Below are positions 30,477 to 45,529 of a stretch of DNA of 64,000 nucleotides, in pieces. The position numbers and the translations under genes are program-made. The notes below the pieces were generated by a model that was given only the letters and a program-made list of their open reading frames with translations, searched no databases and was not told where the DNA came from. Within the stretch, counting starts at the first letter, position 1. Each line of letters starts with the position of its first letter. Where the stretch lies: the NCBI GenBank assembly GCA_023388355.1, contig JAEWGI010000045.1, positions 1 to 64,000 of the forward strand, written 5' to 3'. The stretch comes from Pseudomonadota bacterium (GTDB taxonomy: Bacteria; Pseudomonadota; Gammaproteobacteria; Xanthomonadales; Xanthomonadaceae).

Positions 30477-30616
30477 ACGCAAGCGCCGCTCCGCCCTGCC
30501 CCTTCCCCCACACGCAAGCGCCGCTCCGCCCTGCTCCTTCCCCCATACGCAAGCGCCGCTCCGCCCTGCTCCTTCCCCCATACGCAAGCGCCGCTCCGCC
30601 CTGCTCCTTCCCCCGC
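30477..30616. repeat. 35-bp tandem repeat, four units
   Basis: Four contiguous 35-bp units begin at 30477, 30512, 30547 and 30582. Each starts ACGCAAGCGCCGCTCCGCCC and ends in CTTCCCCC plus two bases; units differ at one to three positions. The end of the last unit is the left palindrome of the dispersed repeat at 30603-30758, so the array seems to have grown from its edge. There are no spacers, so it is not a CRISPR array. Confidence 0.92.
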
Positions 30617-30892: not shown

Positions 30893-30938
30893 CTAGGGTC
30901 GGCCCCAGATATCGGCATACGCCGGGCCGCCGTAGCGT
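30893..30938 (+). promoter_or_regulatory. candidate type III operator site 1 and -10
   Basis: CTAGGGTCGGCCCCAG (30893-30908) is an imperfect dyad (CTAGGGT / CTGGGGC) lying 76 bp before the gene at 30985. A weak -10, TAGCGT (30933-30938), follows, placing the dyad centre near -44. Near-identical dyads precede other units of the secretion locus at 34923, 35758, 35774 and 41457. Confidence 0.55.
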
Positions 30939-30984
30939 ACGGACATGACAGGCGTGTGTCGCGCCGGCAGCGGGGAGGCAAGCC

Positions 30985-32541
30985 GTGACGTCGATTCCCT
31001 CCCCCGGCCAGGTCCTGCGCGCGCTGCTGCCGCCGGGCCTGCGCGACGCCGAGATTCCCCTGCCCTTGGCGCAGGCCGATGGGCCGACCACGGAAGACGG
31101 CGGCGATCCTCCGCGGGTGCCGGCTCCGCCCTGGCAGGCAGGCAACCGTCCGGAGGCGGGTCCGCCACCGCATGCGCAGGTCCATTCGCACGCGCCGATG
31201 CGTTCCGACGGCCTGCCGCCGATGTCGATTCCCGACGCCACGCGGCTGGCCGACTCACTGGCCAACATGGTGCGGCAGAACCCCTCCCATCCCCTGTTCC
31301 GGGAAGTCACCACAACGCCTCCGGAAGTATTCCGGCAATGGGTGGTCCAGGCGCTGACCCGGCAGCTGTCCGCGGCGCAGGACGTGCCCGCGCAGGCCCT
31401 GGCCGACGCCCGCCATGCGGTGCCGTCGCCGGTCGCGAGCGAGGCCCGTGCGCAGTCGTACGCCCTGCGCGCGGCCGTGCAGGCACAGGCCCAAGGCCAG
31501 GCCTCGAACCTGCCGCAGCAGGTGCCACCGCACGCTGCGGAGGCCGAGCGCCTGGCCGCCCGCACGGGCGACGACGCCCGCATGCCGGTCCCCGGCGCGC
31601 CTGCACAGGCAGGTGGGCGCAGCGCGAACGAAGCGTCCGCCGGCATCGCCCACGCGTTGGCGCAGGGCCAGCGTGCGGACGTCGCGCCAGGCCCGCCCAC
31701 GCTGCCGCCCGGGGCGACGACCATGGCGGCCACGCCCGGTGCCCAGGCTCCGGCTGGCGATGCCGCGCACACGCCGGCCGGCGCCGGCCAGGCCGCAGCC
31801 GAGTCCACCCGTCCCGCCGACACCCGTCCCGCCGACACCCTCATGCCGGCGCCGCAAGGCCGCAGCCTCAACGAGGGCGCGATGCTGCCCGCGCGCGCCG
31901 AACGCGCCGGCGGCGGCGACCCGTCGGGCGGCCTGCCGGGCATGACCGCCGCGGCCGGAATCACCCTGGCCGCCGTCGCCAGTCCGGCCGGCACCACGTT
32001 CGCCCACGCTCCGCAGGAAGCATTGCGCGCGCGCCAGCCCGAGGCGGGCCGTGCGAAGGACGGACAGCGCGACGGCGAGGAGGCCAGCGGCGAAACCGGA
32101 TCGGAACCCGACGCGCACGGGCGCGGGGAAGGCGACGGATCCGATGCCGACCGAGGCTCCGGCGAACCTGCGGCCGACACGGCCCGGGACAGGTCCACGC
32201 GCAGCGCAGCGGCCGCCGCCGGCCACACCGTCGCAGCCGCTGGCCTGGGCCTGGCGCTGGCCGACGACGGGAACGAGGACAACGACCTGCGCCTCCCCGG
32301 CCATGCCGTCGACCGGTCGGTCGATGACGGGGGCGCTCCGCGCGATCCGCGGCAATGGCTCTACTGGAGCCTGATCGCGGTCACCTATGCCTGCCTGGCG
32401 CTGGCCCTGGCCACGGTTTCGCCTCTGGCCCCGTCGCTGCCGCTGGCCACCGAAGCGCTGCCGGCGTGGCGCACCGGGCTCACCGCGATCGGCCTTGCGA
32501 CCGGGTTCTGGGCCTGGCTGCTGGCGCGCCGCATGCGCTGA
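30985..32541 (+). CDS. unrecognised Ala/Pro-rich protein with C-terminal membrane hairpin
   Basis: A 518-residue protein I do not recognise. GTG start with GGGGAGG seven bases upstream. About the first 450 residues are low-complexity, rich in Ala, Pro, Gly and Gln, and predicted disordered. Near the C-terminus are two hydrophobic helices (LYWSLIAVTYACLALALATV and LTAIGLATGFWAWLL) separated by a short loop and ending in RRMR. It is preceded by operator site 1 and transcribed away from the main minus-strand cluster. Position and regulation suggest a substrate or accessory part of the secretion system; a two-helix hairpin is seen in translocators, but there is no sequence match. Confidence 0.7.
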   Translation: MTSIPSPGQVLRALLPPGLRDAEIPLPLAQADGPTTEDGGDPPRVPAPPWQAGNRPEAGPPPHAQVHSHAPMRSDGLPPMSIPDATRLADSLANMVRQNPSHPLFREVTTTPPEVFRQWVVQALTRQLSAAQDVPAQALADARHAVPSPVASEARAQSYALRAAVQAQAQGQASNLPQQVPPHAAEAERLAARTGDDARMPVPGAPAQAGGRSANEASAGIAHALAQGQRADVAPGPPTLPPGATTMAATPGAQAPAGDAAHTPAGAGQAAAESTRPADTRPADTLMPAPQGRSLNEGAMLPARAERAGGGDPSGGLPGMTAAAGITLAAVASPAGTTFAHAPQEALRARQPEAGRAKDGQRDGEEASGETGSEPDAHGRGEGDGSDADRGSGEPAADTARDRSTRSAAAAAGHTVAAAGLGLALADDGNEDNDLRLPGHAVDRSVDDGGAPRDPRQWLYWSLIAVTYACLALALATVSPLAPSLPLATEALPAWRTGLTAIGLATGFWAWLLARRMR

Positions 32542-32580
32542 GGTTCCCTCCGGACGTCGCAATCCCGCCCGCGCAACCGC

Positions 32581-33015
32581 TCAATGCGGATCCCGCGCGC
32601 GCGCATCGCCCTGCGCGTCATAGCGGCCACGCGCATGCCTGCGCCTGACCTCGGCGCCATCCTCGCGACCCAGCGCATGTGCCTGCTCCCGCAGCCAGGC
32701 GTCCGCGCGCGTGCGTCCCTCGCTGCGTACGCGCCGCTCGTATTCGGGCAGCAGTTCGCGCCTGCGACGCTCGATCATGCGCTGCATATCCGCGCGCAGC
32801 GCCTGCTCGTCCACGGCCTGCTCGTCCAGTGCCTGCGCGTCCGCGTCGGCCGCAGCGCGCTGCGCGTCCGCCGGTGACGGCGTCGGCATCGCCAGCAGCA
32901 GCACCGTGCATGCGGCCAGCATCGGCGCGCGCAGCGTGGCGACACCCGCCGTCCGGATCCTTCGGCCCCCGCACCGGCCGGCATCGGCAGTCGCGCCGCG
33001 CTTGCCGGCGCTCAT
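32581..33015 (-). CDS. unrecognised exported protein sharing a motif with two other locus proteins
   Basis: A 144-residue protein. The ATG at 33015 overlaps the stop of the gene upstream (ATGA), pointing to coupled translation. After 31 basic residues comes a hydrophobic, signal-like segment (MLAACTVLLLAMPTPSPADA); a second possible start is the Met at 32922. The C-terminal half is charged and helical. It has the block EYERRVRSEGRTRADAWL followed by ALGRxDG, which recurs in modified form in the proteins at 34270-34860 and 34960-35391. Function unknown. Confidence 0.7.
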   Translation of the reverse strand: MSAGKRGATADAGRCGGRRIRTAGVATLRAPMLAACTVLLLAMPTPSPADAQRAAADADAQALDEQAVDEQALRADMQRMIERRRRELLPEYERRVRSEGRTRADAWLREQAHALGREDGAEVRRRHARGRYDAQGDARARDPH

Positions 33016-33737
33016 CGCGACACCGCCAGCCCAGCGCCAGTGGCCGCGACCCGGCCGGGATCGATTCCGGTCGCACGCGAGACGTTGCCGCGCACGCGGG
33101 TGCGAAACGCCTCCAGATCCCGGCTGCGGCCCGCTCGACTGAGCACCTGGAACGTGAGTCCGGTGGAAAGCGTCGAATAGGCGTAGCGCTCGGCCAGCAC
33201 CTGGCGGTCCTCGGCCGAAAGCGCGCGCAGCTGCGAGGATGCGGCCAGCTTGCCGGCAATGGCCCGGCGCACCGCATTGCGTTCGTTCGCGTCGGGCGTC
33301 TGTCCGTTCACCGCCTCCATCGACACCAGCAGGTAGGCGGTCATCACGTCGGCGATATCGCTTTTCGACAGGCCGAGGTGGCGCATCAGCTTGTCGTACT
33401 CGCCCAGCAGCCCGCCCGAGGCGATCACCGGCCGCAGCAATTCGTCCGAGCGCGGATCTCCGGTCGATTCGCGCAGGATCTCCTCGCGCAGGCGCGCGCT
33501 CACGCTGCTTCGGTAGGTCACCCGCATGGGCATGGTCTGCGATGACGCCGACTGCTTCCCCGCATCCGCGCGCCGGGTCGGTTTGGGTACCGTGGCGTCG
33601 CGCACCAGGCTCTGCAGCATGTCCATGCGATAGCCTTCGGCGAACCCCGCGGTGGCGCTCGGTTCGAACTGCGCCTGCGATGGCAGCGGCAGCGCCAGCG
33701 CCGCCAGCAGGAAAAGCAGGATCGCGGGTGTGTGCAT
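33012..33737 (-). CDS. secreted protein resembling DUF6683
   Basis: A 241-residue protein with a clear signal peptide (ILLFLLAALALPLPSQAQ). The mature part is helical: a conserved-looking core runs through TYRSSVSARLREEILRES, LLGEYDKLMRHLGLSKSDIADV, TAYLLVSMEAVNG and LAERYAYSTLSTGLTFQ. This pattern reminds me of DUF6683 proteins, a family of unknown function; the match is from memory. GGAGG precedes the ATG. It heads a two-gene unit with the protein at 32581-33015, beyond the terminator of the needle-like gene. Confidence 0.72.
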   Translation of the reverse strand: MHTPAILLFLLAALALPLPSQAQFEPSATAGFAEGYRMDMLQSLVRDATVPKPTRRADAGKQSASSQTMPMRVTYRSSVSARLREEILRESTGDPRSDELLRPVIASGGLLGEYDKLMRHLGLSKSDIADVMTAYLLVSMEAVNGQTPDANERNAVRRAIAGKLAASSQLRALSAEDRQVLAERYAYSTLSTGLTFQVLSRAGRSRDLEAFRTRVRGNVSRATGIDPGRVAATGAGLAVSR

Positions 33738-33769
33738 GCGTGTCCTCCGTGGTGCCGGCGTCGCCGCTG

Positions 33770-33810
33770 AAAAAAAAGGAACGCCATGCCTTCGACAGAC
33801 ATGGCGCTCC
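33770..33810 (-). terminator. Rho-independent terminator of the needle-like gene
   Basis: Read on the minus strand, GGAGCGCCATG, an 11-base loop and CATGGCGTTCC form a stem followed by eight T (33777-33770). Two further GC-rich hairpins lie between it and the gene (33825-33864). It separates the gene at 33879-34214 from the two-gene unit that follows. Confidence 0.8.
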
Positions 33811-33878
33811 GATGTTGCCGGACTCTCCGGCTTCGCGCCGGAGCCGCCGGGACGCCCGGCGGCGACGTCCGCGCGCCG

Positions 33879-34214
33879 CTACTGCTTGCGCGCCAGGCCG
33901 GTCAGGCCTTCACCGATCGCCTTGATGGCGGTGGCGGCGGTGTTGCTCATGATGTTGAAACGCTGGCTGGCCACCTGGAAGTCGGTGGAGGCCTCCATGA
34001 AGTCGGCGCCGTCCTTCTTCTCGCTGTGCGCAACCATGCGGTCGGCGGCGTCGACGAGGCGGGCCGATTCCTTGCCCAGCATCTCGCCCAGCGCCTTGCC
34101 CAGCGCTTCGAAGAAGTTGCGGGCCTTGGTGCTGCTCGAAGCGGTCTCGGACGAGGCGAGGTTCTCGCCGGTGACGATGTTGTTGAAGATGAAGTTGGTG
34201 ATGTCGGTAGCCAT
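33879..34214 (-). CDS. type III needle/filament-like protein, paralogue of 41013-41345
   Basis: A 111-residue, mostly helical protein starting MATDITNFIFNNIVTGENL after a good AGGAG. It aligns with the protein at 41013-41345 over most of its length: an aromatic-EA block (FFEALGKALGEMLG versus WYEAMSRAWGQTLD) and the C-termini MSNTAATAIKAIGEGLTGLA and MSNNAATSQNSVAEALNAVA, both ending RKQ. Size and composition suit a needle or extracellular filament subunit, but it matches none I can name. It has its own terminator, as expected for a highly expressed monocistronic unit. Confidence 0.72.
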   Translation of the reverse strand: MATDITNFIFNNIVTGENLASSETASSSTKARNFFEALGKALGEMLGKESARLVDAADRMVAHSEKKDGADFMEASTDFQVASQRFNIMSNTAATAIKAIGEGLTGLARKQ

Positions 34215-34269
34215 GATCGTGTACTCCTGGATTCGCTGATGTCTGTCGGGATCGGTGCGCGCGCTGCGG

Positions 34270-34860
34270 TCAGCGGCGCGGCGGACCCCGCAGGCGGCGG
34301 GACCTGGAGTTGACGATCGAGGTGGCCAGCGACGCCGGCGGCGCGTGGACGACGGCGACGGCGTCGTCATCGTCGTCGCCGGCCTGGTCCTGCGCCTTCA
34401 GCCAGGCCAGCGCCTGGTCCTGTCCCTGCTCGCGCACGCGACGCCCGAATTCGAGCGCGCGCGCGACGTCGCGATCGCGCTCCGGCGTCAGCACGCCGTC
34501 GAGCTGGCGCAGCAGCGCGCTGGCGTCGTCTTCCGTGAGCACCTCGCTGCGGCGCAGCCCTTCCACCGTTTCGCGCCATTCGGCGCGGGCGGCATCGGGC
34601 GTGGCCTCGGCGCTGGCGTCGCCCTGCTGCTGGCGCAGGGCGAGCTCGACCTGTCCGCGCAGCGCCGCGCGGTCCTGCGGATCGAGCACGCCACCGGCCT
34701 CGAGCGCGGTGGCCAGTTCGTCCACCAGGGCCTCGATCACGGCCGCGTATCCATCGTCGTCCGCAGCCGCCACACCGGCCTCGTCCGCGTCCGGGCGCAG
34801 CGCGACGACCGTCTGCGACGGACGCGGCTGGGGGGGAGGGCGGCGGGGAGGACGGGCCAT
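34270..34860 (-). CDS. unrecognised acidic helical protein of the secretion locus
   Basis: A 196-residue soluble protein with a Pro/Arg-rich start, an Asp/Glu/Ala-rich helical middle and an acidic DDDDD patch before a basic tail. Residues about 100-165 (LRRSEVLTEDDASALLRQLD, then EFGRRVREQGQDQALAWLK) align with the protein at 34960-35391. No Shine-Dalgarno is present: the minus strand upstream of the ATG is pyrimidine-rich. A -10-like TAGACT and operator site 3 lie upstream, so it has its own promoter. Chaperone, regulator or substrate are all possible. Confidence 0.65.
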   Translation of the reverse strand: MARPPRRPPPQPRPSQTVVALRPDADEAGVAAADDDGYAAVIEALVDELATALEAGGVLDPQDRAALRGQVELALRQQQGDASAEATPDAARAEWRETVEGLRRSEVLTEDDASALLRQLDGVLTPERDRDVARALEFGRRVREQGQDQALAWLKAQDQAGDDDDDAVAVVHAPPASLATSIVNSRSRRLRGPPRR

Positions 34861-34894
34861 GGGGGGGAAGGAGGAGTCAGGGCGGGCCGGATCG

Positions 34895-34938
34895 AGTCTA
34901 CGGACGCACCGGATGGCGACAACTGGGGCGGACCCTAG
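34895..34938 (-). promoter_or_regulatory. candidate type III operator site 3 and -10
   Basis: CTAGGGTCCGCCCCAG on the minus strand (34923-34938) differs at one base from site 1. TAGACT (34895-34900) follows 22 bp downstream. With a start site near 34888 the dyad centre would be at about -42, the normal place for an activator touching RNA polymerase. It lies 62 bp before the gene at 34860. Confidence 0.6.
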
Positions 34939-34959
34939 CCAGCCGGACCGTGCGGCCGC

Positions 34960-35391
34960 TCAGGTATGCGCGTCGATTTCCTGCGACAGCGAGGGGATCG
35001 TCTGCACCAGTTGGCGCATCTGCTCGCCCTGGCGTCGGCCGAGCGCTTCGGCGGCAGCGGCCAGCCAGTCGCGGGTGGCATCCTCGCCATCGCCCGCGAG
35101 TCGCTCGCGGTACTCGGCTTCCAGCCGCGCCTTCTCCGCGCGCAGCTCGGAGGCAAGCGCGTCGTAGCGGCGCAGCAGCGCGCCCTCGTCGGCGACATCG
35201 AGCCGGCCCTGCCGGCGCAGGTCGGCGAGCAGGTCGACCAGGTCCATGCGGCTGGTGGGGATCGGTGGCTGCGGCGCGGACACCGGTTCCGCGGTCGCGG
35301 CCTCGACGTCCAGTGGACGGGCGAAGCGGACATCGGCGGCGTTCGCCGGGCCACCGCGTGGCTGCGGGCGTGGTGCGGGACGTCTGTTCAT
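34960..35391 (-). CDS. unrecognised helical protein, paralogous motif
   Basis: A 143-residue soluble protein. The first 45 residues are Pro/Arg-rich; the rest is charged coiled-coil-like helix: LVDLLADLRRQGRLDVADEG, EYRERLAGDGEDATRDWLAA and ALGRRQGEQMRQLV. The last two blocks correspond to those of the proteins at 32581-33015 and 34270-34860. GGAG lies seven bases before the ATG. It follows the 69-residue gene by 63 bp and may share its promoter. Function unknown. Confidence 0.68.
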   Translation of the reverse strand: MNRRPAPRPQPRGGPANAADVRFARPLDVEAATAEPVSAPQPPIPTSRMDLVDLLADLRRQGRLDVADEGALLRRYDALASELRAEKARLEAEYRERLAGDGEDATRDWLAAAAEALGRRQGEQMRQLVQTIPSLSQEIDAHT

Positions 35392-35454
35392 CGTGCACTC
35401 CGGCAGGTGGCGCGGCGACCGGCGGCTTCGCGCCGGGCGCCAGCCGCCGCCCGC

Positions 35455-35664
35455 TTACATGCCCATGGCGTTGAGGAAGCCGTTGCTGAAGGCACCGTTG
35501 AACACCGAGTCGAAGGCCGCGTTGCCGCTGCCGCCGGATTCGCCGAGCAGGGAACCGACCAGTCCGCCGGCCAGCTGGCCGAGCATGGGGTTGCCGGTGT
35601 AGGCGGTGACCGCGAGGGAGACGACGTTGGACACCAGGTCGCCGAGGCCGCTGAGGAAGCTCAT
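35455..35664 (-). CDS. small Gly-rich hydrophobic protein, possible secretion substrate
   Basis: A 69-residue protein starting MSFLSGLGDLVSNVVSLAV with a strong AAGGAG upstream. It is rich in Gly, Ser, Asn, Leu and Phe, has no Cys or charge clusters, and ends in phenylalanine-glycine spaced residues (FDSVFNGAFSNGFLNAMGM). The composition recalls harpin- or pilin-like secreted proteins but there is no specific match. Two tandem operator dyads (35758-35789) stand upstream, the only doubled site in the locus, which suggests strong, controlled expression. Confidence 0.68.
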   Translation of the reverse strand: MSFLSGLGDLVSNVVSLAVTAYTGNPMLGQLAGGLVGSLLGESGGSGNAAFDSVFNGAFSNGFLNAMGM

Positions 35665-35757
35665 GATGGACTCCTTGTCTTGCCGGGATGTCGGGGGGAA
35701 ACATCGCGCGCTGGGGGCGCAGCTGCAGTCTGCGACCGCCCGCGATCCCGCTCCAAG

Positions 35758-35789
35758 CTGGGGCGTGCCCCATCTGGGGCCGACCCTTT
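35758..35789 (-). promoter_or_regulatory. tandem candidate type III operators, sites 2a and 2b
   Basis: On the minus strand AAAGGGTCGGCCCCAG (35774-35789) is directly followed by ATGGGGCACGCCCCAG (35758-35773), two 16-bp dyads end to end. The inner TGGGGC-GT-GCCCCA is a perfect palindrome on the plus strand. Downstream TTGGAG (35751-35756) and CAGACT (35727-35732), 18 bp apart, could be -35 and -10, placing the dyad centres near -45 and -61. Confidence 0.6.
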
Positions 35790-35793
35790 GGCC

Positions 35794-36495
35794 TCAGCCG
35801 TTGAAGTGCGGATCGACCCGCAGCTGACCGAGGTCGTGCTCGGCGAAGCGGCGCGCCAGCGAAGGCGCCGCCTCCTGGATGGCGTCGTAGCTGTCGCGTG
35901 AACGCACGTCCGCGCGCAGCAGCCAGCCGTCGGCGGTGCGGCTGAGCAGCAGGTCGGTGCCGGGCAGGGTCGCGTCGGACATGCGCAGCAGCACGTGGCC
36001 GTCGCCGTCGGCCGAGGCCGCGCCGTCGACCGCAAGCTGGCGCACATGGCGCTCCAGCATCTCGGCCAGGGCACGGCCGCTGGCCATGGGCGCGGCCGGG
36101 GCCGCAGGCGGCGGCAGCGCGCTGCCCTCGCGCAGGGCCGACTGCGCCTGCATCATCGCCAGCAGGTCGGCGCCCTCGAGCGAATTGGCGCCCATGCCGT
36201 TGTTGTCGGTCCCGGCGTCCCGACCACCGTGGCCGTCGAGGCCGCGCAGCGCGGCCTGTTCGTCGGCGCCGCGCGCGGCCGCCTGCGCGGCATGGCGCCC
36301 CGCGTCCTGCGCGCCCGGCCGCTGCTCCTGCGCGGCGCGGCCTTCCTGGCGCCCGTGCTGCATCAGCTGGCGGAAACGGTCGACCTGTTCCTTCGGCGGC
36401 GCCTCGCGGGGCCTGTCGGCGGAACGATCGCCGTCGGCCGGCTTCGCATCCGCGACCGGGCGGTTCGAGAGCGACGATGTGCTGCTGTTGTCCAT
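35794..36495 (-). CDS. sctP: type III secretion needle-length/specificity protein, SctP/HpaP-like
   Basis: A 233-residue protein that by position and architecture is the SctP (YscP/HpaP) component, which sets needle length and triggers the substrate switch. The N-terminal half is Gln/Ala/Arg-rich and disordered. The C-terminal 110 residues are compact (ALAEMLERHVRQLAVDG, GHVLLRMSDATLPGTDLLLSRTADGWLLRADVRS), like the T3S4/HpaP domain. The start at 36495 leaves two bases after the sctO stop. Last gene of the needle-sctIJKLNOP operon. Its normal partner SctU is not encoded in this window. Confidence 0.7.
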   Translation of the reverse strand: MDNSSTSSLSNRPVADAKPADGDRSADRPREAPPKEQVDRFRQLMQHGRQEGRAAQEQRPGAQDAGRHAAQAAARGADEQAALRGLDGHGGRDAGTDNNGMGANSLEGADLLAMMQAQSALREGSALPPPAAPAAPMASGRALAEMLERHVRQLAVDGAASADGDGHVLLRMSDATLPGTDLLLSRTADGWLLRADVRSRDSYDAIQEAAPSLARRFAEHDLGQLRVDPHFNG

Positions 36496-36497
36496 GC

Positions 36498-37016
36498 TCA
36501 CGGCCTTGCTCCTCCTGTGTCGGTGCGGGCGACGTGCGCGGCCTGCACCAGGTCGGCAACGGCGTCCTCCTCGCGGCGCGCCTCCAGCGCGATCACTTCT
36601 CCCTTCCACACGTGCTTGCGCTGCTCGAGCGCGTCCTCGCGAGCCCTGGCCCGGAAGAAGGCCTGCATCGCCTCGGCCAGCGCCTGTTCGGCCTGGACCA
36701 GCGCCTGCCGCGCCTGCTGCAGGCGCCGGACCGCGGCCTGCTCCTGTTCGCCGAGCCAGTCGATGTGCGCCTCGCGCTGCTCCAGCGCCAGCGGGAACGG
36801 AATCCCGGGTGGCGGCGGTTCGAGCATGCGCAGCCGCTGGCCGGCGCGCTCGCGGCGCAGCCCGTCGATTTCCTGCTCGATCCGCTCGCAGGCCTCGCGC
36901 CGCTCGCGCACATCGCGCTGGCGCTCGGTCACCACCCGGCGCGCCTTCTCCGTGCGGTGCGCGCGCAGCTGCAGCAGCTGCTGCAGGGGATAGCGCCGGC
37001 GCGATGCGCCACTCAT
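36498..37016 (-). CDS. sctO: type III secretion stalk protein SctO
   Basis: A 172-residue, almost wholly coiled-coil protein (YPLQQLLQLRAHRTEKARRV, long Arg/Glu/Gln heptads) of the YscO/FliJ type. In the family it inserts into the SctN hexamer and links it to SctV, and it handles chaperones. Its ATG overlaps the sctN stop (ATGA), so expression is coupled. No catalytic residues are expected. Assignment rests on position between sctN and sctP, length and coiled-coil nature. Confidence 0.82.
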   Translation of the reverse strand: MSGASRRRYPLQQLLQLRAHRTEKARRVVTERQRDVRERREACERIEQEIDGLRRERAGQRLRMLEPPPPGIPFPLALEQREAHIDWLGEQEQAAVRRLQQARQALVQAEQALAEAMQAFFRARAREDALEQRKHVWKGEVIALEARREEDAVADLVQAAHVARTDTGGARP

Positions 37017-38371
37017 GCGAACAGCTTCCCGAGCATCTGCGACGAGCGCGCGAACGGCACCAGCTCGTCCGAGGACTGCTGCAGCAGCTGGCGGATCGGG
37101 TCGATGCGCTCGATCGCGTAGTCGGCCTCGCTATCGCTGCCGCGCTTGTATTCGCCCAGCTGAAGCAGCAGCTCGATGTCCTGGTGCTTGGCCAGCGCCT
37201 TGCGCAGCTGCCCGGCCGCGCGCAGGTGCGCGGCGTCGACCACGCGCGGCATGGTGCGGCTGAGGCTGGTGAGCACGTCGATCGCCGGATAGTGGTAGGC
37301 GGCGGCGAGCTTGCGCGAGAGCACGATGTGGCCGTCGAGGATCGAGCGCACTTCCTCGACGACCGGGTCGCCGCCGTCCTCGTCCTCGGCCAGCACGGTG
37401 TAGAAGGCGGTGATGCTGCCGGTCTCGTTGTTGCCGGCGCGCTCGAACAGCCGCGGCAGCGCGCTGAACACCGAAGGCGGGAAGCCGCGCCGCGCCGGCG
37501 GCTCGCCGATCGCCAGGCCGACGTCGCGCAGCGCGCGCGCGAAGCGGGTCACCGAGTCGAGCAGCAGCAGCACGCGCTTGCCCTGGTCGCGGAAATGCTC
37601 GGCGATGGCGGTGCCGACCCAGGCCGCGCGGCTGCGCTCGAGCGCGGGGCGGTCGGAGGTGGCGACCACGATCACCGATTTCGCCAGTCCGGCCTGGCCA
37701 AGGTTGTCGTGGATGAACTCGTTGACCTCGCGGCCGCGCTCGCCAACCAGCACGATCACGTTGACGTCGGCGTCGCCGCCGCGCGCCAGCATTCCCAGCA
37801 GGGTGCTCTTGCCGCCACCCGCGACGGCGAAGATGCCCACGCGCTGGCCTTCGCCCGCGGTCATCACCGCATCGATCGCGCGCACGCCGGTGGAGAACGG
37901 ACGCTCGATCAGCCTGCGGGTGAGCGGGTTGGGCGAGGCGGCGTAGATCGGCATGTCCACGCCCGGGCCGGTCGGGCCGCGGTCGTCGATCGGTTCGCCG
38001 TGGGCATCGAGGATCCGCCCGAGCAGGCCCGGGCCGGCACGCACGGAAGCCTGGCGCCCGCTGGCCACGATCTGGGTGGTCGCGGAAATGCCGTCCAGCG
38101 CGCCCAGCGGAGTCAGCAGGGTGTGCTGGCGCGACACGCCCACGACTTCGGCGGCGAGATCGAAGGACGGATCGCCCTCGCCGTCGGGATTGCGCAGGTG
38201 GCACAGCTCGCCGATCGCGGCCTTCAGGCCGGTGGCGCGGATCAGGGTGCCGTAGGCTTCGACCACGCGCCCCACGCGCTGCACCGACTTGACCCCGGCC
38301 AGGGCGTCGAGCAGCGGATCGAGCGCGGCGTCCCCACTTGCCTGTGCCAGCGGCGGTCCGGGCAGGTTCAC
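37013..38371 (-). CDS. sctN: type III secretion ATPase SctN
   Basis: The cytoplasmic hexameric ATPase that unfolds substrates and strips chaperones. Walker A is AVAGGGKSTLLG (about residues 182-193), Walker B LLLLDSVTRFARALRD; the VGERGREVNEFI and GFPPSVFSALPRLFERAG blocks are diagnostic of the SctN/FliI family. The start is GTG at 38371, overlapping the sctL stop as GTGA; much longer readings run antisense through sctL and are rejected. The 452 residues are normal length. Translationally coupled to sctL and sctO. Confidence 0.95.
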   Translation of the reverse strand: MNLPGPPLAQASGDAALDPLLDALAGVKSVQRVGRVVEAYGTLIRATGLKAAIGELCHLRNPDGEGDPSFDLAAEVVGVSRQHTLLTPLGALDGISATTQIVASGRQASVRAGPGLLGRILDAHGEPIDDRGPTGPGVDMPIYAASPNPLTRRLIERPFSTGVRAIDAVMTAGEGQRVGIFAVAGGGKSTLLGMLARGGDADVNVIVLVGERGREVNEFIHDNLGQAGLAKSVIVVATSDRPALERSRAAWVGTAIAEHFRDQGKRVLLLLDSVTRFARALRDVGLAIGEPPARRGFPPSVFSALPRLFERAGNNETGSITAFYTVLAEDEDGGDPVVEEVRSILDGHIVLSRKLAAAYHYPAIDVLTSLSRTMPRVVDAAHLRAAGQLRKALAKHQDIELLLQLGEYKRGSDSEADYAIERIDPIRQLLQQSSDELVPFARSSQMLGKLFA

Positions 38372-39054: not shown

Positions 39055-39679
39055 CGCGATCCTCGTGGTGCGACACGACCACCAGCGCCGCCTTTTCCGG
39101 CAGGTGCACGGGCCGCGCCGGCGCGGGCGCGCGCAGCAGCAGCGCCCAGTCGGCGAGCGCGCGGTTGCGGCGCGTGGCCCAGGCCAGCAGCTCGGCCTGG
39201 CCCTGGCGATCGAGCATGCCGCCAAGCAGCGATGGATCCTGCCCGAAGGCCGGTTCGGCCAGCAGCGCATTCCAGTCCGCGGCCAGGCGCGCGTGGGTGT
39301 CGGCGCCGATGCGGCCGTCCCACACGCTGCGGTCGAGCGCGAGCAGATAGCTGTTGCCCAGGGTTGCGCGCAGCCAGCGCACCGGCTCGCGGCGCACCTC
39401 GGCGCGGATCGCCGGCGCATACGCGAGTACGCCCAGGTCGCGCACCAGGCCCGCCACCCGCGGCGAGGGCCAGCGCGCGCGCGTGGCGCGGTACGCCGGT
39501 TCGCCGGGCCGCGGCGCGAACAGGCCGTCGCCGAGCGCCGGCGGCAGCGCGCGCAGCAGCAGGCGCCGGCCCAGCGCGCTGGTGCGCGCGCGCTCGATCA
39601 GTGCACCGGCGGATGCCGGGTCGAGCCGATCCGCGTACCACGCCGGATGCACGTCGGCGAGCAGCGCCTGCAGGGACAT
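39044..39679 (-). CDS. sctK: type III secretion sorting-platform protein SctK
   Basis: A 211-residue YscK-like protein. It is helical and rich in Arg/Leu/Ala, with HPAWYADRLDPASAG near the N-terminus and a conserved-looking ALGDGLFAPRPGEPAYRATR region. SctK joins the cytoplasmic SctQ/SctL/SctN assembly to SctD. Recognition is partly by position between sctJ and sctL, exactly as in Ysc-type loci. Start ATG at 39679, four bases after the sctJ stop. Confidence 0.82.
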   Translation of the reverse strand: MSLQALLADVHPAWYADRLDPASAGALIERARTSALGRRLLLRALPPALGDGLFAPRPGEPAYRATRARWPSPRVAGLVRDLGVLAYAPAIRAEVRREPVRWLRATLGNSYLLALDRSVWDGRIGADTHARLAADWNALLAEPAFGQDPSLLGGMLDRQGQAELLAWATRRNRALADWALLLRAPAPARPVHLPEKAALVVVSHHEDRDGD

Positions 39680-39683
39680 GCGC

Positions 39684-40484
39684 TCAGCCGTTCCAGAGCT
39701 TGCCGGCGTCGGCGCGGCGCGGCGCGCGGCGCTGGCGGATGCGGTCCCAGGCGGCCCAGATCAGGGCCAGCAGGGCCAGCACGCCCAGGCCGATGCCGAT
39801 CGACATGGCGTTGGCCGCCGACAGCGCCGCCGGGGCCGCGGCGGTGCGCTGCAGCGGCGCGTTGGCCGGCGGGCCGGGCATCGGCACGAACTCGACCGAG
39901 ACCTTGTTGATGTCGTCCAGGCCCTCGATGCCGTCCTTGACCACGGTCTTGATCCGGGTCTGCATGCTCTCGAGGTTCGCGCCCGGCTGCTGGAAGATCA
40001 CCACCGCCGCCGAGGAATCGTTCGCCTCGCCGCCAAACGGGTCGCGCTGGGCCATGGCGATGTGCACCCGCGCGTCGACCACGCCCGGATACCCGGCCAG
40101 GGTGCGCGCCAGCTCCTGCTGGCGGCTGCACAGGTAGCGCGCGTTCTCCTCGACCGCGGACGAGGCGATGCCCTCCTTCTTGAACACGTCGCACATCGAC
40201 ACGTACTGCTGGCGCGGCAGTCCGCGCGACTGCAGCACCTGCATGGCGCGCGCGAACTCGCCCTTGTCGACGCGGATCTCCCAGCCGGTCTTGCTGATCG
40301 AGGTGCGCTTCTCGGCGTTGACGCCGGCTGCAAGCAGGGCGGCGAACACCTCGTTGGCCTGGCGCTCGTCCAGGTCGCCGTACATCGTGACCCCTGAACA
40401 CGCGACCATGAGCAGGCAGGCGGACAACACGCCGACCGCGCGCAGCAGGCGCAGCGGGCGGAACCGGTCGCGGACAATGTGCAT
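39684..40484 (-). CDS. sctJ: type III secretion inner-membrane ring lipoprotein SctJ
   Basis: A 266-residue YscJ/HrcJ-family lipoprotein forming the inner-membrane ring. The signal ends in LLMVACSG (lipid-modified Cys29), followed by the hallmark LYxxL-type MYGDLDERQANEVFAAL segment, the ring-building domains (VVDARVHIAMAQRDPFGG, SSAAVVIF) and a C-terminal transmembrane helix (IGIGLGVLALLALIWAAW). The start at 40484 lies 20 bp after the sctI stop; upstream in-frame sequence is antisense-like and rejected. Confidence 0.95.
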   Translation of the reverse strand: MHIVRDRFRPLRLLRAVGVLSACLLMVACSGVTMYGDLDERQANEVFAALLAAGVNAEKRTSISKTGWEIRVDKGEFARAMQVLQSRGLPRQQYVSMCDVFKKEGIASSAVEENARYLCSRQQELARTLAGYPGVVDARVHIAMAQRDPFGGEANDSSAAVVIFQQPGANLESMQTRIKTVVKDGIEGLDDINKVSVEFVPMPGPPANAPLQRTAAAPAALSAANAMSIGIGLGVLALLALIWAAWDRIRQRRAPRRADAGKLWNG

Positions 40485-40504
40485 GGGAATGGACTCCGGC
40501 GCGT

Positions 40505-40921
40505 TCAGGACTGCTGCCGGAACAGCTGCTGCACGCCGTCGGAGGTCCGGTTGGCCACGTTCGCGGTCAGCTGCGACTGGAACAGGAACTGGTGGCACTG
40601 GGTGGTCAGCTGGATCATCTGCCCCGGCGTCATCTCCGTGGCGCTCGCGGACATCGCGCTCGACAGCGCCTGGACCTGCTCGGCGGTGCCGTTGAGGCTG
40701 TCGAAGGCCTGGACCATCATCTTCGCCCCGGCCGACTCGCCTGCCGGCGCGGTCGTGGCCACCTGCGCATCGGCCTTCGCCGCCGTGCCGGCGCCGCCGG
40801 TGCGTTCGAACGCCTGCGCGAACTCGCGCACCTCGACCGCCGAAGCCTGCGGCTGCAGTGCCGGCGCCGCTGCCGGGGCCGCGGCCGCGTCGAGCGCCGC
40901 CACCTGGATTGCATCGATCAT
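40505..40921 (-). CDS. sctI: type III secretion inner rod protein SctI
   Basis: A 138-residue YscI/HrpB-family inner rod protein. Ala-rich first half; the C-terminal LTTQCHQFLFQSQLTANVAN followed by RTSDGVQQLFRQQS is the conserved end of the family, which packs beneath the needle. The start at 40921 is supported by the family N-terminus (MIDAIQVAALDA) and the AGGAGACAGGCA upstream. Located between the needle-like gene and sctJ. Confidence 0.88.
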   Translation of the reverse strand: MIDAIQVAALDAAAAPAAAPALQPQASAVEVREFAQAFERTGGAGTAAKADAQVATTAPAGESAGAKMMVQAFDSLNGTAEQVQALSSAMSASATEMTPGQMIQLTTQCHQFLFQSQLTANVANRTSDGVQQLFRQQS

Positions 40922-41012
40922 TGCCTGTCTCCTTCCGAAGTTGTCCAAGCCGCGCCGACGGGCGCGCGTGGCGCGGCGGCCACGCCTGCGCATCACCGTT
41001 GCGGCGCTGCGC

Positions 41013-41345
41013 CTACTGCTTGCGCGCGACCGCGTTCAGCGCCTCGGCGACGCTGTTCTGCGAGGTGGCCGCGTTGTTGGACATGAACTGCATCTTCAGG
41101 CTGGCGGCGGTGAGCGCGACCATCTGCGAGGGCTGGTCGGAACCGGTGCCGATCTGGTCGGACAGTTCGGTGATGTGGGTCGCCTGGGCGTCGAGCGTCT
41201 GCCCCCATGCGCGCGACATCGCCTCGTACCAGCTGGTGCCGCCCGCGCCGCCGCCGCTGCGGACGTTGCCGGTGCCCGGCCCGTTCTGGAACGTGGCCGC
41301 GCCGACGTACTGGTTGATGAGGTTGGCGTTGGTTGGAATCGTCAT
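41013..41345 (-). CDS. probable type III needle subunit, SctF-like
   Basis: A 110-residue protein starting MTIPTNANLINQYVGAATF after a good AGGAG. The N-terminal third is Gly/Asn-rich; the rest is helical and ends MSNNAATSQNSVAEALNAVA then RKQ. Position directly before sctI, where sctF lies in Ysc loci, makes it the likely needle subunit. It is longer than usual (80-90) and has no classic needle motif I can name. The protein at 33879-34214 is its paralogue. First gene of the needle-I-J-K-L-N-O-P operon, with operator site 4 upstream. Confidence 0.72.
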   Translation of the reverse strand: MTIPTNANLINQYVGAATFQNGPGTGNVRSGGGAGGTSWYEAMSRAWGQTLDAQATHITELSDQIGTGSDQPSQMVALTAASLKMQFMSNNAATSQNSVAEALNAVARKQ

Positions 41346-41456
41346 CGCAATGCTCCTGTTGCGTCGGGGGATCGGACTCCGGAGGCCACGCTGCATCTGG
41401 CCCGTGGACTGTCTCGTCTGGAACTGTAGCGGATAAACATTGCAGCGAACCGTGAC

Positions 41457-41472
41457 CTAGGGTTTACCTCAG
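41457..41472. promoter_or_regulatory. candidate type III operator site 4
   Basis: CTAGGGTTTACCTCAG matches site 1 at 12 of 16 positions, with the left half identical. It lies 111 bp before the needle-like gene in the gap after sctD, oriented opposite to the gene, which a dyad allows. ACTGTA (41423-41428, TACAGT on the minus strand) is a possible -10. Confidence 0.5.
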
Positions 41473-41479
41473 TGCACGT

Positions 41480-42715
41480 TTACGGCGCGTCGCCGGCACG
41501 CGCGCGCCGCGCCGGTCGCGCGTCTGTTTCAGCTTGCTGAATGGCGGTCTGCGAACCCGTCGCGCCCGCGGGCGGCGACGATTCGCGCGCGTCGGTGCCG
41601 GCTTCCGGCTGCGAAGGCGGCTCGGCCGACGGCTTGATCCTCGCGAGCGCGCCGTCCGGGCGCAGCACGTGGGCGTAGGCGCCGATCGAGATCAGCGCGC
41701 CCCAGCCGGGGATCGGTTCGCCGACGTGGTAGCGCTCACCGTCGGCCGATTCGACGTACGGCGTCTCGCCGCGCACGATCGCGACGATGTGCTTGCGGGT
41801 GATGTCGACCGCATCCGCCACCGCGTCGGCGACGGGTTCGTCCAGGTCCACGGGTTCGACCGTGTTGACGCCGGTTTCCGCCATCGCGCGCGACTGGATG
41901 AAATCGCGCACGGCGCGGGCATCGCCGCCGAGCGCTCCGGTGACGCGCACGTTGCGGTCGCCCAGGTATTCGGCCTGCACGGTGTAGCCGCCGGTGCGCA
42001 TCACCTCGGCCACGTCCGAGGCGAGGTCCTGTCCGCTGCGCAGGGCCAGGCTCGCCGGCAGCTTCTCGTCGGCGATGCGCGCATCGAGGCGGGCGCGGCT
42101 GGCGTCGTCGTCGACCATGCCCGCAAGCACGGCGCGACCTTCCACGTCGCGGGTGATCCGCGCGTCGCCGACGCGGTACTCGCGCGCCAGTTCGCGCAGG
42201 CGCTGCTCGACGTCGACCGGCGGCGGGGCGGACGGCATCCACGCGGCGAAGATCGCGAGTCCGGCCAGGGCCAGGACCGCGACGCCCGCGATCATCGGCA
42301 GCCTGCTTGCGAAGGCGGGCGGGCGGCGCGGCGGCGGACCGGCGTCGATCCCGGGCGCCAGCGCCAGCCATTCGGGCGCATCGGCGCGGCCGAACGCGAT
42401 CGCGGCCTGGCCCAGGCCGATGCGCTGCACCTGCGCCACTTCGACCGGATCGCCGGGATGCAGGGTGCGGCCCGGCAGCTCCAGCGGCGCATCCAGCGCA
42501 CGCAGGTGGAAGCGGCCGTCGACCGCGTTGACCAGGGCATGGTGCGGCGCCACGCCAGGGTCGGCCAGCACCACGTCGCAGTCGTCGCCGCTGCCCACCA
42601 GCACCATCTCGCGCCGCGACAGCGGGCGGCTGGCGCCGGCGTGCAGGCCGGCGACGATGCGCAGGATCGCGGCGTCGGCCTCAGGCGGGTGCGGTTCGTT
42701 TTCGGGGGAAGACAT
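41480..42715 (-). CDS. sctD: type III secretion inner-membrane ring protein SctD
   Basis: A 411-residue SctD (YscD/PrgH-type) protein. It has an N-terminal FHA-like cytoplasmic domain (LVGSGDDCDVVLADPGVAPHH), a single transmembrane helix (MIAGVAVLALAGLAIFAAW, about residues 140-160) and a periplasmic part with repeated BON/ring-building folds (VEGRAVLAGMVDDDASRARL, NVRVTGALGGDARAVRDFIQ). The C-terminal 40 residues are disordered. The FHA end binds SctK in the sorting platform. The start at 42715 has GGAGCGAAATACG upstream; it follows sctV by 62 bp. Confidence 0.9.
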   Translation of the reverse strand: MSSPENEPHPPEADAAILRIVAGLHAGASRPLSRREMVLVGSGDDCDVVLADPGVAPHHALVNAVDGRFHLRALDAPLELPGRTLHPGDPVEVAQVQRIGLGQAAIAFGRADAPEWLALAPGIDAGPPPRRPPAFASRLPMIAGVAVLALAGLAIFAAWMPSAPPPVDVEQRLRELAREYRVGDARITRDVEGRAVLAGMVDDDASRARLDARIADEKLPASLALRSGQDLASDVAEVMRTGGYTVQAEYLGDRNVRVTGALGGDARAVRDFIQSRAMAETGVNTVEPVDLDEPVADAVADAVDITRKHIVAIVRGETPYVESADGERYHVGEPIPGWGALISIGAYAHVLRPDGALARIKPSAEPPSQPEAGTDARESSPPAGATGSQTAIQQAETDARPARRARAGDAP

Positions 42716-42777
42716 CGTATTTCGCTCCAGCGGGCGGGGGATCCCACGGGATGGACAGGGGGAATGGCAGCGGCCGC

Positions 42778-44835
42778 TCAGGCATTGACCTGGCCGGCCT
42801 GGACGATACGCAGGTCCGGTGCCAGCTCCTGGTAGGAGAGCACCGGCAGATCGAAGAAATCCACTTCCAGCAGCTTGCGCAGGTGGCGGCGCACGTCGAG
42901 CGAGCACAGCAGCACCGGCTGCACGCCGGGCGCCTGCCGCGCCAGCTGTGCGCGCACCTCGCCGCCGAGGCGCGCGGCCAGCTCCGGCGAGATCGCAAGC
43001 TGGCTGGCGCCGCCGGCCACGCGCACCGACTGGCGCAGCTTGTCCTCGAGCTCCGGATGGATCAGCAGCACGTGCAGCTGGCGATCATGGTCGGACCAGC
43101 GCTCGGCGATCTCGCGCTTGAGCGCCACCCGCACGTACTCGGTCAGCAGCACCACGTCCTTCTCGCGGCTGCCGACGTCGGTGATCGCCTCGAACGCGTC
43201 GCGCAGATTGCGGATCGGCACGCCCTCCTCCGCCAGCCTTCGCAGCACGTCGGCCACCCGCTGCGGCGCGACCACGCGCAGCATCTCCTTGACCAGGTCC
43301 GGATAGTCGCGCTGCATCTTGCCGAACAGGTTGGACGTCTCCTGGATGCCGAGGAAACTGCCGAGCCTGCGCCGCAGCGCGCTCCCGGCATGCAGCGCCA
43401 GCACGTCCAGCGGCGCCAGCGCGCCTTCGGCCGCGGGCCCTTCGCGCCAGCGGCCCGACAGCGGCGGGAACCAGCCCGGCAGCGGCGCGGCTCCCGGCGT
43501 CTGCGGCTCGAATGCGGCGCCGCGCGGCAGGTTGCCCGAAGCGACCCGCGCCCCGTGCGCGCTGAGCCTGAACTCGCCTTCGCCCAGCAGCGCCGACACG
43601 CGCACCACCGGTACCGGCAGCGGCACGCCGAACTCGTCGCGCAGCTCGCGCGCCAGGCTGGCCAGGCGCGCGCGCGCCGGCTCCTGCCCCAGGTGGGCGG
43701 CCAGCAGCGGCGCCAGTTCCAGCAGCAGCGGCGGCGGCGGCGCGAAATCGTCGGTTTCCTCCGGCGCGTGGGAGGCGGCGATCTCCTCGTCGCTGACCTT
43801 GAACACGCGCCGCAGGGTTTCGAACTGGTGCCGGTAGCGCCACGCGCTGAAGACCATCAGCGACAGGCCCAGCACCAGGAACACCGGCCACGGGAACCCG
43901 GGCACCAGGGTCATCAGCAGCGCCAGCAGGCCGGTGATCAGCGCCACCCGCGGCTGCGCCCCGACCTGGCGCGAGATCGCATCGCCCAGGTGGCGGTCTT
44001 CGGCCTCGCCCGCGGTGCGCGTCACCACCAGGCCCGCGGCCATGGTCGCCAGGATCGCGGGGATCTGCGATACCAGGCCGTCGCCGATGGTGAGGATGCT
44101 GTAGGTGTGGGTCGCCTGCGCCAGCGACATGTCCCGCTGCAGCACGCCGATGGCCAGGCCGCCAAGCAGGTTGACCAGGATGATGACGATGCCGCAGATC
44201 GCATCGCCCTTGACGAACTTCATCGCCCCGTCGAGCGAGCCGTGCAGCTGGCTCTCGGTCTCGAGCAGGCGACGCTTGCGGCGCGCCTCGTCCTTGTCGA
44301 TCAGGCCCGCGCGCAGGTCCGAGTCGATCGACAGCTGCTTGCCGGGCATCGCGTCGAGGGTGAAGCGCGCGGCCACCTCGGCCACGCGCTCGGCGCCCTT
44401 GGCGATGACGATGAACTGGACCACGGTGATGATCAGGAACACCACCAGGCCGACCACCAGGTTGTTGCCGGCAACCAGGGTGCCGAAGGTCTCCACGATG
44501 TGCCCGCCCTCGGCGTGCAGCAGGATCGACTTGGTGATCGCGATCGAGATCGCGAGCCGGAACAGCGTGGTCAGCAGCAGCACGCTGGGGAAGCTGGAGA
44601 ACGCCACCGGGTTGGGGATGTAGATGCCCAGCAGCAGCAGGCCGAAGCCGATCGAGATGTTGACCGCGACCAGCGTGTCGAGCGCCACCAGCGGCAGCGG
44701 CAGGATCATCACGCTGATGATCAGCACCGCGCCGAAGGCCAGGATCACGTCGCTGTAGCCGGTCCGCCTGCGCGGCGCGGCGCCCGCGGGGGCCGCGAAC
44801 AGGGTATTGAGCCAGCTGCGTACGTTCGTCGTCAT
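42778..44835 (-). CDS. sctV: type III secretion export gate protein SctV
   Basis: The large export-gate subunit (FlhA/YscV/HrcV family), a nonamer binding substrate-chaperone complexes. The 685 residues have eight transmembrane helices in the first half with the FHIPEP-type NISIGFGLLLLGIYIPNPVA and FPSVLLLTTLFRLAISIA segments, the conserved PGKQLSIDSDLRAGLID loop, and a large cytoplasmic domain ending in FDLPVLSYQELAPDLRI. Start at 44835. An upstream promoter with direct repeats is seen at 44925-44980. Confidence 0.96.
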   Translation of the reverse strand: MTTNVRSWLNTLFAAPAGAAPRRRTGYSDVILAFGAVLIISVMILPLPLVALDTLVAVNISIGFGLLLLGIYIPNPVAFSSFPSVLLLTTLFRLAISIAITKSILLHAEGGHIVETFGTLVAGNNLVVGLVVFLIITVVQFIVIAKGAERVAEVAARFTLDAMPGKQLSIDSDLRAGLIDKDEARRKRRLLETESQLHGSLDGAMKFVKGDAICGIVIILVNLLGGLAIGVLQRDMSLAQATHTYSILTIGDGLVSQIPAILATMAAGLVVTRTAGEAEDRHLGDAISRQVGAQPRVALITGLLALLMTLVPGFPWPVFLVLGLSLMVFSAWRYRHQFETLRRVFKVSDEEIAASHAPEETDDFAPPPPLLLELAPLLAAHLGQEPARARLASLARELRDEFGVPLPVPVVRVSALLGEGEFRLSAHGARVASGNLPRGAAFEPQTPGAAPLPGWFPPLSGRWREGPAAEGALAPLDVLALHAGSALRRRLGSFLGIQETSNLFGKMQRDYPDLVKEMLRVVAPQRVADVLRRLAEEGVPIRNLRDAFEAITDVGSREKDVVLLTEYVRVALKREIAERWSDHDRQLHVLLIHPELEDKLRQSVRVAGGASQLAISPELAARLGGEVRAQLARQAPGVQPVLLCSLDVRRHLRKLLEVDFFDLPVLSYQELAPDLRIVQAGQVNA

Positions 44836-44924
44836 CCGTGGCCCTTGGGGGAAGAGGGCGGGTGGAGGAGAGGCCGGGGTAGCGGTCGATCCGGTGCGTG
44901 CTCCGCAAGCGCGGAACGCGACCA

Positions 44925-44980
44925 TATATCGCCGCGATGTTACCCGTCCGTCAACAGGATGTTGCAGGGAATGTTGCAGG
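44925..44980 (-). promoter_or_regulatory. promoter of sctV with upstream direct repeat
   Basis: On the minus strand TTGACG (44949-44954) and GATATA (44925-44930) are 18 bp apart. Immediately upstream of the -35 stand two exact copies of CCTGCAACAT (44959-44968 and 44971-44980), 12 bp in period, a likely activator site distinct from the CTAGGG dyad. The remaining gap 44836-45019 shows no gene. Confidence 0.55.
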
Positions 44981-45019
44981 CGCCGTGCGACGCGGCGCGC
45001 GAGTGTGACACAGGCCGCA

Positions 45020-45475
45020 TCACGGTCGTTTAACCTTCAGTCGCTGTAATAGGCTTGGCAACAGGCCCGTCGTCACCGCGTCCTCGCGCATCTGCGCCTG
45101 GGCGATGGCCGCCGGACCGAGGTCGTCGTCGTCGAGCATGGACACCAGCGTCACCGCGTTGGCGCTCACGCCCACCGCGAAGGCGCGTCCGGCGCGCGAA
45201 CGCAGCACCACGACGCGTTCGCGCGGGCCGACCGGCAGCACCTGCACCACCGACAGCGGCGCGTCCGGGCCGGCAAGGCCGAAACGCCGACGCAACAGGC
45301 GCAGCAGCACCAGCAGGAAGATGATGATGATGGCGAGCGGCAGCAGGATCGCGACCAGTTCCCAGACGTACGACGTCCCCGGTTCGGCGACGGCCTCCAT
45401 CGCCGGGGCCGCAGCGGCCGGCAGCGGCAGCCACGCACACACGATGGCCATGGACAGGCGTTGGCGCGACGGCAT
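45020..45475 (-). CDS. FliO-like protein in the type III secretion locus
   Basis: A 151-residue membrane protein with a signal-like start, one long transmembrane helix (LVAILLPLAIIIIFLLVLLRLL) and a cytoplasmic domain PLSVVQVLPVGPRERVVVLR, AFAVGVSANAVTLVSML. This is the FliO/MopB pattern (short periplasmic end, one helix, beta-rich domain with GPRERVVVL). In flagella FliO helps assemble the FliP-FliQ-FliR gate, the SctRST equivalents. Injectisomes normally lack it. It is divergent to the kinase-regulator-sctQRST unit and 184 bp before sctV. Confidence 0.82.
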   Translation of the reverse strand: MPSRQRLSMAIVCAWLPLPAAAAPAMEAVAEPGTSYVWELVAILLPLAIIIIFLLVLLRLLRRRFGLAGPDAPLSVVQVLPVGPRERVVVLRSRAGRAFAVGVSANAVTLVSMLDDDDLGPAAIAQAQMREDAVTTGLLPSLLQRLKVKRP

Positions 45476-45522
45476 CGGCGGTCCTCTTTCGATGGAAGCT
45501 CCCGGGGTTCCCGGGGCCGCTT

Positions 45523-45529
45523 ACCCTAG
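45523..45529 (-). promoter_or_regulatory. candidate type III operator half-site 5
   Basis: CTAGGGT on the minus strand, within CTAGGGTAAGCGGCCCC, matches the left half of the dyad exactly; the right half is displaced by a few bases. It sits in the 60-bp gap between the fliO-like and histidine kinase genes and could serve both. Confidence 0.35.

Follow-up and report, generated by a model that had tools for sequence, protein, structure and literature searches.

The stretch analysed here, called the window, comprises 64,000 nucleotides of contig JAEWGI010000045.1 (a 72% GC chromosome stretch) and carries a type III secretion system (T3SS) locus, in which a 16 bp dyad with the full consensus CTAGGG-N4-CCCTAG recurs in front of genes. 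The closest named relatives by SctV identity are Luteimonas kalidii (92%) and L. saliphila (91%). The locus encodes SctP (HpaP family), SctO, SctN, SctL, SctK, SctJ, SctI, a needle candidate, SctD, SctV and a FliO-like protein, SctK and SctL being assigned by position and SctI by a below-cut-off match; on the other strand, past the FliO-like gene, follow genes for a histidine kinase, a FixJ-type response regulator (RR) and SctQ. Judged from sequence, the dyad very probably serves as operator for a T3SS-dedicated regulon and is bound by the RR encoded at 46652-47248. The genes concerned are:

30985..32541, plus strand: 518-aa protein with a C-terminal hydrophobic segment, a putative regulon member
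34270..34860, minus strand: 196-aa accessory protein, downstream of the 34923 dyad
35455..35664, minus strand: 69-aa small protein of the secretion locus, downstream of the tandem dyad
41016..41345, minus strand: needle (SctF) candidate, so assigned because it lies between sctD and sctI; it heads the operon that runs towards sctI and sctJ
45536..46648, plus strand: histidine kinase (HisKA and HATPase_c), with orthologues in loci L001-L017
46652..47248, plus strand: FixJ/LuxR-type RR (receiver domain plus GerE helix-turn-helix), the proposed dyad-binding activator

Neither the 518-aa nor the 69-aa product matched any Pfam family. The dyads, with their scores from a matrix of relatives' sites, are:

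30893..30908, plus strand: dyad CTAGGGTCGGCCCCAG, upstream of the gene at 30985-32541; matrix score 20.3, joint first
34923..34938, minus strand: dyad CTAGGGTCCGCCCCAG, upstream of the gene at 34270-34860; matrix score 20.3
35758..35773, minus strand: weak tandem dyad copy ATGGGGCACGCCCCAG, upstream of the gene at 35455-35664; matrix score 9.3
35774..35789, minus strand: weak tandem dyad copy AAAGGGTCGGCCCCAG; matrix score 4.1
41457..41472, plus strand: dyad CTAGGGTTTACCTCAG, upstream of the minus-strand operon starting at 41345; matrix score 19.3

An earlier note on this DNA had proposed these five dyads as operator sites, and the sequences it quoted are present where it placed them. Its observation that CTAGGG occurs nowhere else also held: there are 4 occurrences in 64 kb, every one at a quoted place, and since shuffled sequences predict about 9, the hexamer is rare in the window. 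The distance from dyad to gene, given there as 50–110 bp, was roughly right, the measured range from dyad centre to gene start being slightly wider (70–120 bp). The scoring matrix was built from 30 sites in relatives, with the window and genomes G001 and G002 excluded. The sites at 30893, 34923 and 41457 rank first in the 64 kb (scores 19.3–20.3), while the next match in the window scores 9.3 and the maximum across 40 simulated 64-kb sequences was 15.6; the 30 sites had been chosen by their likeness to the dyad, so that this test is not wholly independent of the pattern first noticed. Three of the five proposed operators are strong. The tandem copies at 35758 and 35774 individually score within the chance range, though the 16-bp tandem is kept before the orthologous gene in G001 and G002, the two nearest relatives, and a contiguous tandem dyad is also found in Caulobacter. 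Counting a loose pattern with 3 mismatches allowed was uninformative, the 58 matches seen being at chance level (55.9 expected), and significance rests on the strict dyad and its conservation.

For the wider comparison, 80 T3SS loci were taken, each covering up to 10 kb on either side of SctV, or less at contig ends. Orthologues of both RR and kinase occur in 17 of them (L001-L017), from Luteimonas, Lysobacter, one Lysobacteraceae, Dyella and Hahella, and an exact CTRGGGN4CCCYAG is present in 13 of these 17 loci compared with 2 of the remaining 63. Both of the latter are from Caulobacter. In G019 the kinase, RR and SctQ lie just beyond the initial stretch and were seen in a wider one, and in G018 the RR, kinase, SctQ and SctN are on another contig. 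Kinase-RR relatives are accompanied by dyads in the T3SS loci of Dyella, Caulobacter and Hahella (1-mismatch dyads). Conservation in relatives, on which the earlier note had staked its proposal, is evident in that the dyad recurs before orthologous genes, many at similar distances. With 0–1 mismatch it precedes the needle-candidate orthologues in the window and G001-G006, and the mapped 518-aa orthologues in the window, G001, G002, G006, G007 and G012; before the 518-aa gene its presence is probable, by position only, in G003-G005, G008, G009 and G014. It also precedes the 196-aa gene orthologues in the window, G001-G006 and G008-G010 (with 1 mismatch in G003 and G010), the 69-aa gene in the window, G001, G002 and G005, and sctV in two Dyella and, with one mismatch, in Hahella. 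In the extended regions besides the window, where the genes called were those aligning to the window's genes, no near-match (0–1 mismatch) fell inside the aligned stretches.

Genome-wide tests were run on genomes of relatives, 247 from the family. Matches to the RR of at least 73% identity are found in 31 of the 247 (next best 51%, in G140), and these same 31 carry SctV at E <= 1e-250. The exact palindrome is present in 24 of these 31 RR-positive genomes and the composite promoter, defined as CTAGGGN4CCCYAG-N22-25-TAGNNT, in 15; one or the other is carried by 30 of the 31, and all three counts are zero among the 216 other genomes. A result that would have counted against the earlier note's proposal, a motif common in unrelated promoters or coding DNA across the genome, was not obtained, the palindrome being absent from all 216 family genomes analysed that lack the RR and T3SS. 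Composite promoters number 24 sites in 15 genomes, compared with 2 sites for the reversed control pattern, and the reversed palindrome control occurs in genomes with and without the RR alike. The motif had been defined with the help of six of the 31 genomes (G001, G008, G009 and G011-G013); of the 25 RR-positive genomes outside these six, 24 are positive. Fisher values, with kinship ignored, are 8e-16, 2e-27 and 9e-38 for composite, palindrome and either, respectively.

Each of the three strong dyads in the window is followed by a hexamer resembling a -10 element:

30933..30938, plus strand: TAGCGT, -10-like, 24 nt after the 30893 dyad
34895..34900, minus strand: TAGACT, -10-like, 22 nt after the 34923 dyad, with the dyad centre near -42
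41423..41428, minus strand: TACAGT, -10-like, 28 nt after the 41457 dyad

The centre of the 34923 dyad had previously been put near -42 relative to TAGACT, and this was borne out, TAGACT starting 22 nt after the dyad. Relatives show TAGAGT or TACAGT near the same spot as the TACAGT of the window. In an alignment of 45 hand-picked, oriented sites, a T stands two bases past the dyad in 37, and by eye a TAGNNT-like hexamer follows many of them at 22–25 nt, or at 28 nt in the case of the needle candidate. The T3SS regions contain 41 oriented exact CTAGGGN4CCCYAG sites, each palindrome being counted once per direction, and 17 of them have TANNNT beginning at 23–25 nt; only two other offsets were seen, once each, and the two window sites were counted at 22 and 24. 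Of the 78 oriented exact sites outside the T3SS, 14 have TANNNT beginning at 23 nt and 7 at 24 nt, and no more than 2 share any other offset from 0 to 60. These 78 represent 62 loci, 2 of 64 having been dropped as lying inside T3SS regions, and their spacing counts are an independent test to which related genomes contribute related sites. If the -10 element is placed at -12 to -7, the dyad extends from about -51 to -36 and lies over the -35 position. LuxR-type activators that contact polymerase are usually centred near -42 to -45, and a TANNNT -10 at fixed spacing is what one would expect if a LuxR-type protein bound there as an activator.

The RR belongs to the NarL/FixJ (LuxR-type) regulators by its matches to Pfam Response_reg (1.1e-23) and GerE (2.8e-19), and at 207 bits does not reach the 255-bit cut-off for FixJ proper (NCBIfam equivalog NF006900). 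Its best relatives of solved structure are FixJ 5xso (E 3.7e-41) and 1yio, a 'response regulatory protein' (E 3.4e-40). No other DNA-binding regulator was recognised among those T3SS proteins of the window that were scanned, which cover part of the locus genes. The helix stretch KTVELHR is identical across the aligned RRs of dyad-bearing systems and differs in other aligned FixJ-type proteins. In Scleromatobacter (G020; L018, L149, L150) the recognition helix reads KTVDLHR, possibly reflecting a change of operator. As is characteristic of T3SS-encoded two-component regulons, the kinase and RR genes lie inside the T3SS cluster. Two-component genes have also been noted in the T3SS clusters of Lysobacter (L. 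capsici and L. antibioticus; PMC10384520, PMC13163355). The first of these states that the function of the system 'has not yet been elucidated', and the second leaves the role of the Lysobacter T3SS open.

What was computed here is the motif itself, the spacing and recurrence it shows, and its joint occurrence with the RR and T3SS; from this we infer the following course of events. The kinase (45536-46648) would presumably phosphorylate the RR, a dimer of which would bind CTAGGG-N4-CCCTAG; the dyad, at about -51 to -36, would replace the -35 element, and the bound RR would act as an activator, recruiting RNA polymerase to the TANNNT -10 element 22–25 nt downstream. The targets switched on would be the needle-candidate operon, the accessory genes of the locus and dispersed genes for probable substrates, whose products would be secreted. 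The earlier note's idea of a regulon is supported, with the correction that the regulon extends past the locus, the composite promoter also preceding dispersed genes.

Several observations weigh against this scheme. One genome (G041) has the RR and a T3SS but neither exact palindrome nor composite. Because the genomes are related, the Fisher values assume more independence than there is, and the rarity of CTAG is not matched in the reversed control pattern. TANNNT stands at 23–25 nt in just the 17 of 41 T3SS-region sites mentioned above, and outside the T3SS many of the exact sites are located within open frames and have no -10 element, hence not every match is functional. In Scleromatobacter (G020), a T3SS with adjoining kinase and RR (43% identical) has no exact dyad, and a single 1-mismatch match was found in 59 kb. 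Lastly, SctV follows the dyad as exactly as the RR does; distribution alone therefore fits any gene of the island and ties the dyad to the island, while the tie to the RR comes from its being a DNA-binding regulator and from its helix.

An operator for some other regulator travelling with the T3SS, with the encoded RR acting elsewhere, would account for the shared distribution of SctV and RR equally well. Further FixJ/NarL-type proteins are present in these genomes, and Scleromatobacter retains a T3SS-linked RR without exact dyads. We nevertheless consider this explanation unlikely, given that no other DNA-binding regulator was recognised among the T3SS proteins scanned, that a dyad with a 4-bp centre suits a FixJ-type dimer, as for SsrB, and that the KTVELHR helix goes along with the dyad. 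Less likely still is that the dyad is a repressor site through which the regulator shuts the promoter off: repression from a dyad over the -35 region can occur, but here the dyad stands where a -35 element would be, at a tight spacing to the -10 element and with its centre near -42 to -45, the usual place of a LuxR-type activator. Chance or a repeat element, that is, rare hexamers in intergenic DNA, would suit the loose pattern and the two window copies in the chance range but is very improbable for the three strong sites on their conservation, matrix scores, -10 spacing and the distribution of 30/31 against 0/216.

The operator reading, with the RR as its activator, is best understood as a T3SS-dedicated two-component regulon that would work like SsrA/SsrB. 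SsrB is a NarL/FixJ-type regulator. Shared with SsrA-SsrB of Salmonella pathogenicity island 2 (SPI-2) are a two-component system tied to a T3SS and an inverted repeat with a 4-bp centre, found before apparatus genes and before dispersed genes (effectors in SPI-2). Here the palindrome with its 4-bp centre is present, as sequence, at apparatus promoters, and dispersed genes carry it too; their products are secreted-toxin-like by sequence and would be putative effectors. Unlike the SsrB site, the dyad has CTAGGG/CCCTAG arms instead of heptamers and a fixed TANNNT spacing, and it occurs in other bacteria, with a FliO-bearing T3SS and targets resembling lipases, nucleases and LysM proteins. The likeness is one of description rather than of sequence comparison with SsrB or its sites. 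According to PMC2837388, SsrB has an 18-bp 7-4-7 palindrome that marks the promoters of SPI-2 and was located at 17 of 22 effectors.

Other known boxes invite comparison. The site of staphylococcal NreC, TAGGGN4CCCTA, has almost the same arms at an identical 4-bp spacing; NreC is a NarL/FixJ-type regulator that serves nitrate/oxygen regulation in Firmicutes and not a T3SS. The HrpG/HrpX system of Xanthomonas, in the same bacterial family as the window, is T3SS-dedicated and marks dispersed effectors, but its PIP box (TTCGB-N15-TTCGB) is a direct repeat with a 15-bp spacer and not a dyad. A HrpX/PIP-box regulon was rejected, with 1 window match (42701-42725, across the sctD gene start) against 0.83 expected, as was one under HrpL, whose hrp box (GGAAC-N16-CCACNNA) gave 1 window match, with one mismatch, against 2.2 expected. 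No published description of the present box was found among the matches listed in a literature search, most subscription journals lying outside it.

Thirteen of the 24 composite sites are on a contig other than that of the T3SS or more than 300 kb distant from it. Of 20 composite sites inspected, 16 have a plausible start codon, chosen by eye, 24–88 nt past the -10 element, two Dyella sites have one at 298 nt, and two are too close to the end of the stretch. Many of the dispersed products start with a Ser/Pro/Thr-rich, disordered-looking stretch. A Pfam scan covered ten products: nine belong to the 13 off-locus composite sites, and one (L230, in G004) to a site outside the composite set. The latter matched Ntox46 (9e-23). 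Of the others, one gave non-specific endonuclease (1e-18), two gave LysM (at 1.2e-10 and, below cut-off, at 0.0014), three gave lipase or Mbeg1-like matches, of which one was above cut-off, and one gave DUF1990, just below cut-off; two of the ten had no Pfam match. These dispersed genes probably encode secreted substrates. Exact dyads outside any 70-codon open frame and away from the T3SS region were also observed at L084, L101, L152 and L153 (Dyella, Hahella).

In RR-positive genomes an exact dyad lies within 400 nt upstream of at least 13 of 67 lipase-like matches, in 11 genomes, a lower bound since only palindromes and composites are known for most genomes (two second pieces of split matches were excluded). 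The lipase family was discarded as a T3SS marker, with matches in 78 of 247 genomes (31/31 RR-positive and 47/216 others), while those with E below 3e-35 are confined to RR-positive genomes. The LysM protein has relatives in 8 of 247 genomes, every one RR-positive; six of these matches are confined to the first 174 residues.

In G009, a composite promoter precedes a DNA/RNA endonuclease gene, and 32 nt beyond the latter comes a small gene that matches a YezG-like immunity family below threshold (Pfam E 0.017). G008 (80% identical) and G014 (51%) also have this small gene, in both cases behind a related larger gene that has a dyad in front of it. The larger gene of G014 has an endonuclease domain (1.8e-17) and an exact dyad without a -10 element at 23–24 nt, and its small gene has no Pfam match. 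At the sequence level, these dyad-preceded endonuclease and small genes look like a bacteria-directed toxin-immunity pair. No obvious immunity-like gene stands behind the Ntox46 gene. The loci in which a dyad-preceded endonuclease-type gene has a small gene directly behind it are L232:140-1467, L226 (minus strand) and L096:1630-2974, with the below-cut-off YezG-like match in L232.

From these products we suggest, tentatively and as a possibility we doubt more than we favour, that the T3SS acts against bacteria, in which case the dyad would control toxin-immunity pairs and wall- or membrane-directed enzymes delivered by the needle into rivals or prey. A FliO-bearing T3SS of Myxococcus is reported in PMC12403147 to have a part in the killing of prey. 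What the T3SS targets becomes directly testable with the candidates (lipase-like, LysM, nuclease with its putative immunity gene, Ntox46). More generally, the dyad gives a T3SS-encoded two-component system a testable DNA target, and the composite promoter offers a search key for candidate secreted substrates genome-wide, as the SsrB palindrome was. Carriers of the dyad and T3SS are described as soil and water bacteria.

The 41016-41345 product is kept as a needle candidate only. Its 14 orthologues (set A1) matched no T3SS family in Pfam and nothing in the PDB, and A2 gave a weak needle-protein match (E 0.93); a structure model shows long helices at low confidence (pLDDT 55), too poor for a fold search. 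The product is paralogous to that of 33879-34214 (28% identity over 78 aa, E 2e-10), and the two are possibly two needle-type subunits in one system. Both end in ARKQ.

The isolated CTAGGGT at 45523-45529 that the earlier note had read as half of an operator is present, but no second arm within 2 mismatches exists at that spot in any of 18 regions (the window and G001-G017), near-matches within 2 mismatches elsewhere in the same interval being limited to G010 and Hahella. Several relatives have TACC[C/G]TAGCAG there and others a more diverged sequence. The half-site is probably better read as the -10 element of the kinase and RR genes:

45522..45527, plus strand: TACCCT, probable -10 of the kinase/RR genes, overlapping the proposed half-site

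The remaining annotated feature is the neighbouring gene on the opposite strand:

45020..45475, minus strand: FliO-like T3SS protein (Pfam FliO, E 3.7e-09, above cut-off)

This FliO-like gene sits in a non-flagellar T3SS; a T3SS-associated FliO is described for Luteimonas and other Pseudomonadota in PMC12403147. At the other end of the locus, a few hundred bases upstream of the 30893 promoter, there is a tandem array of four 35-bp units (30476-30614, 98% matching).

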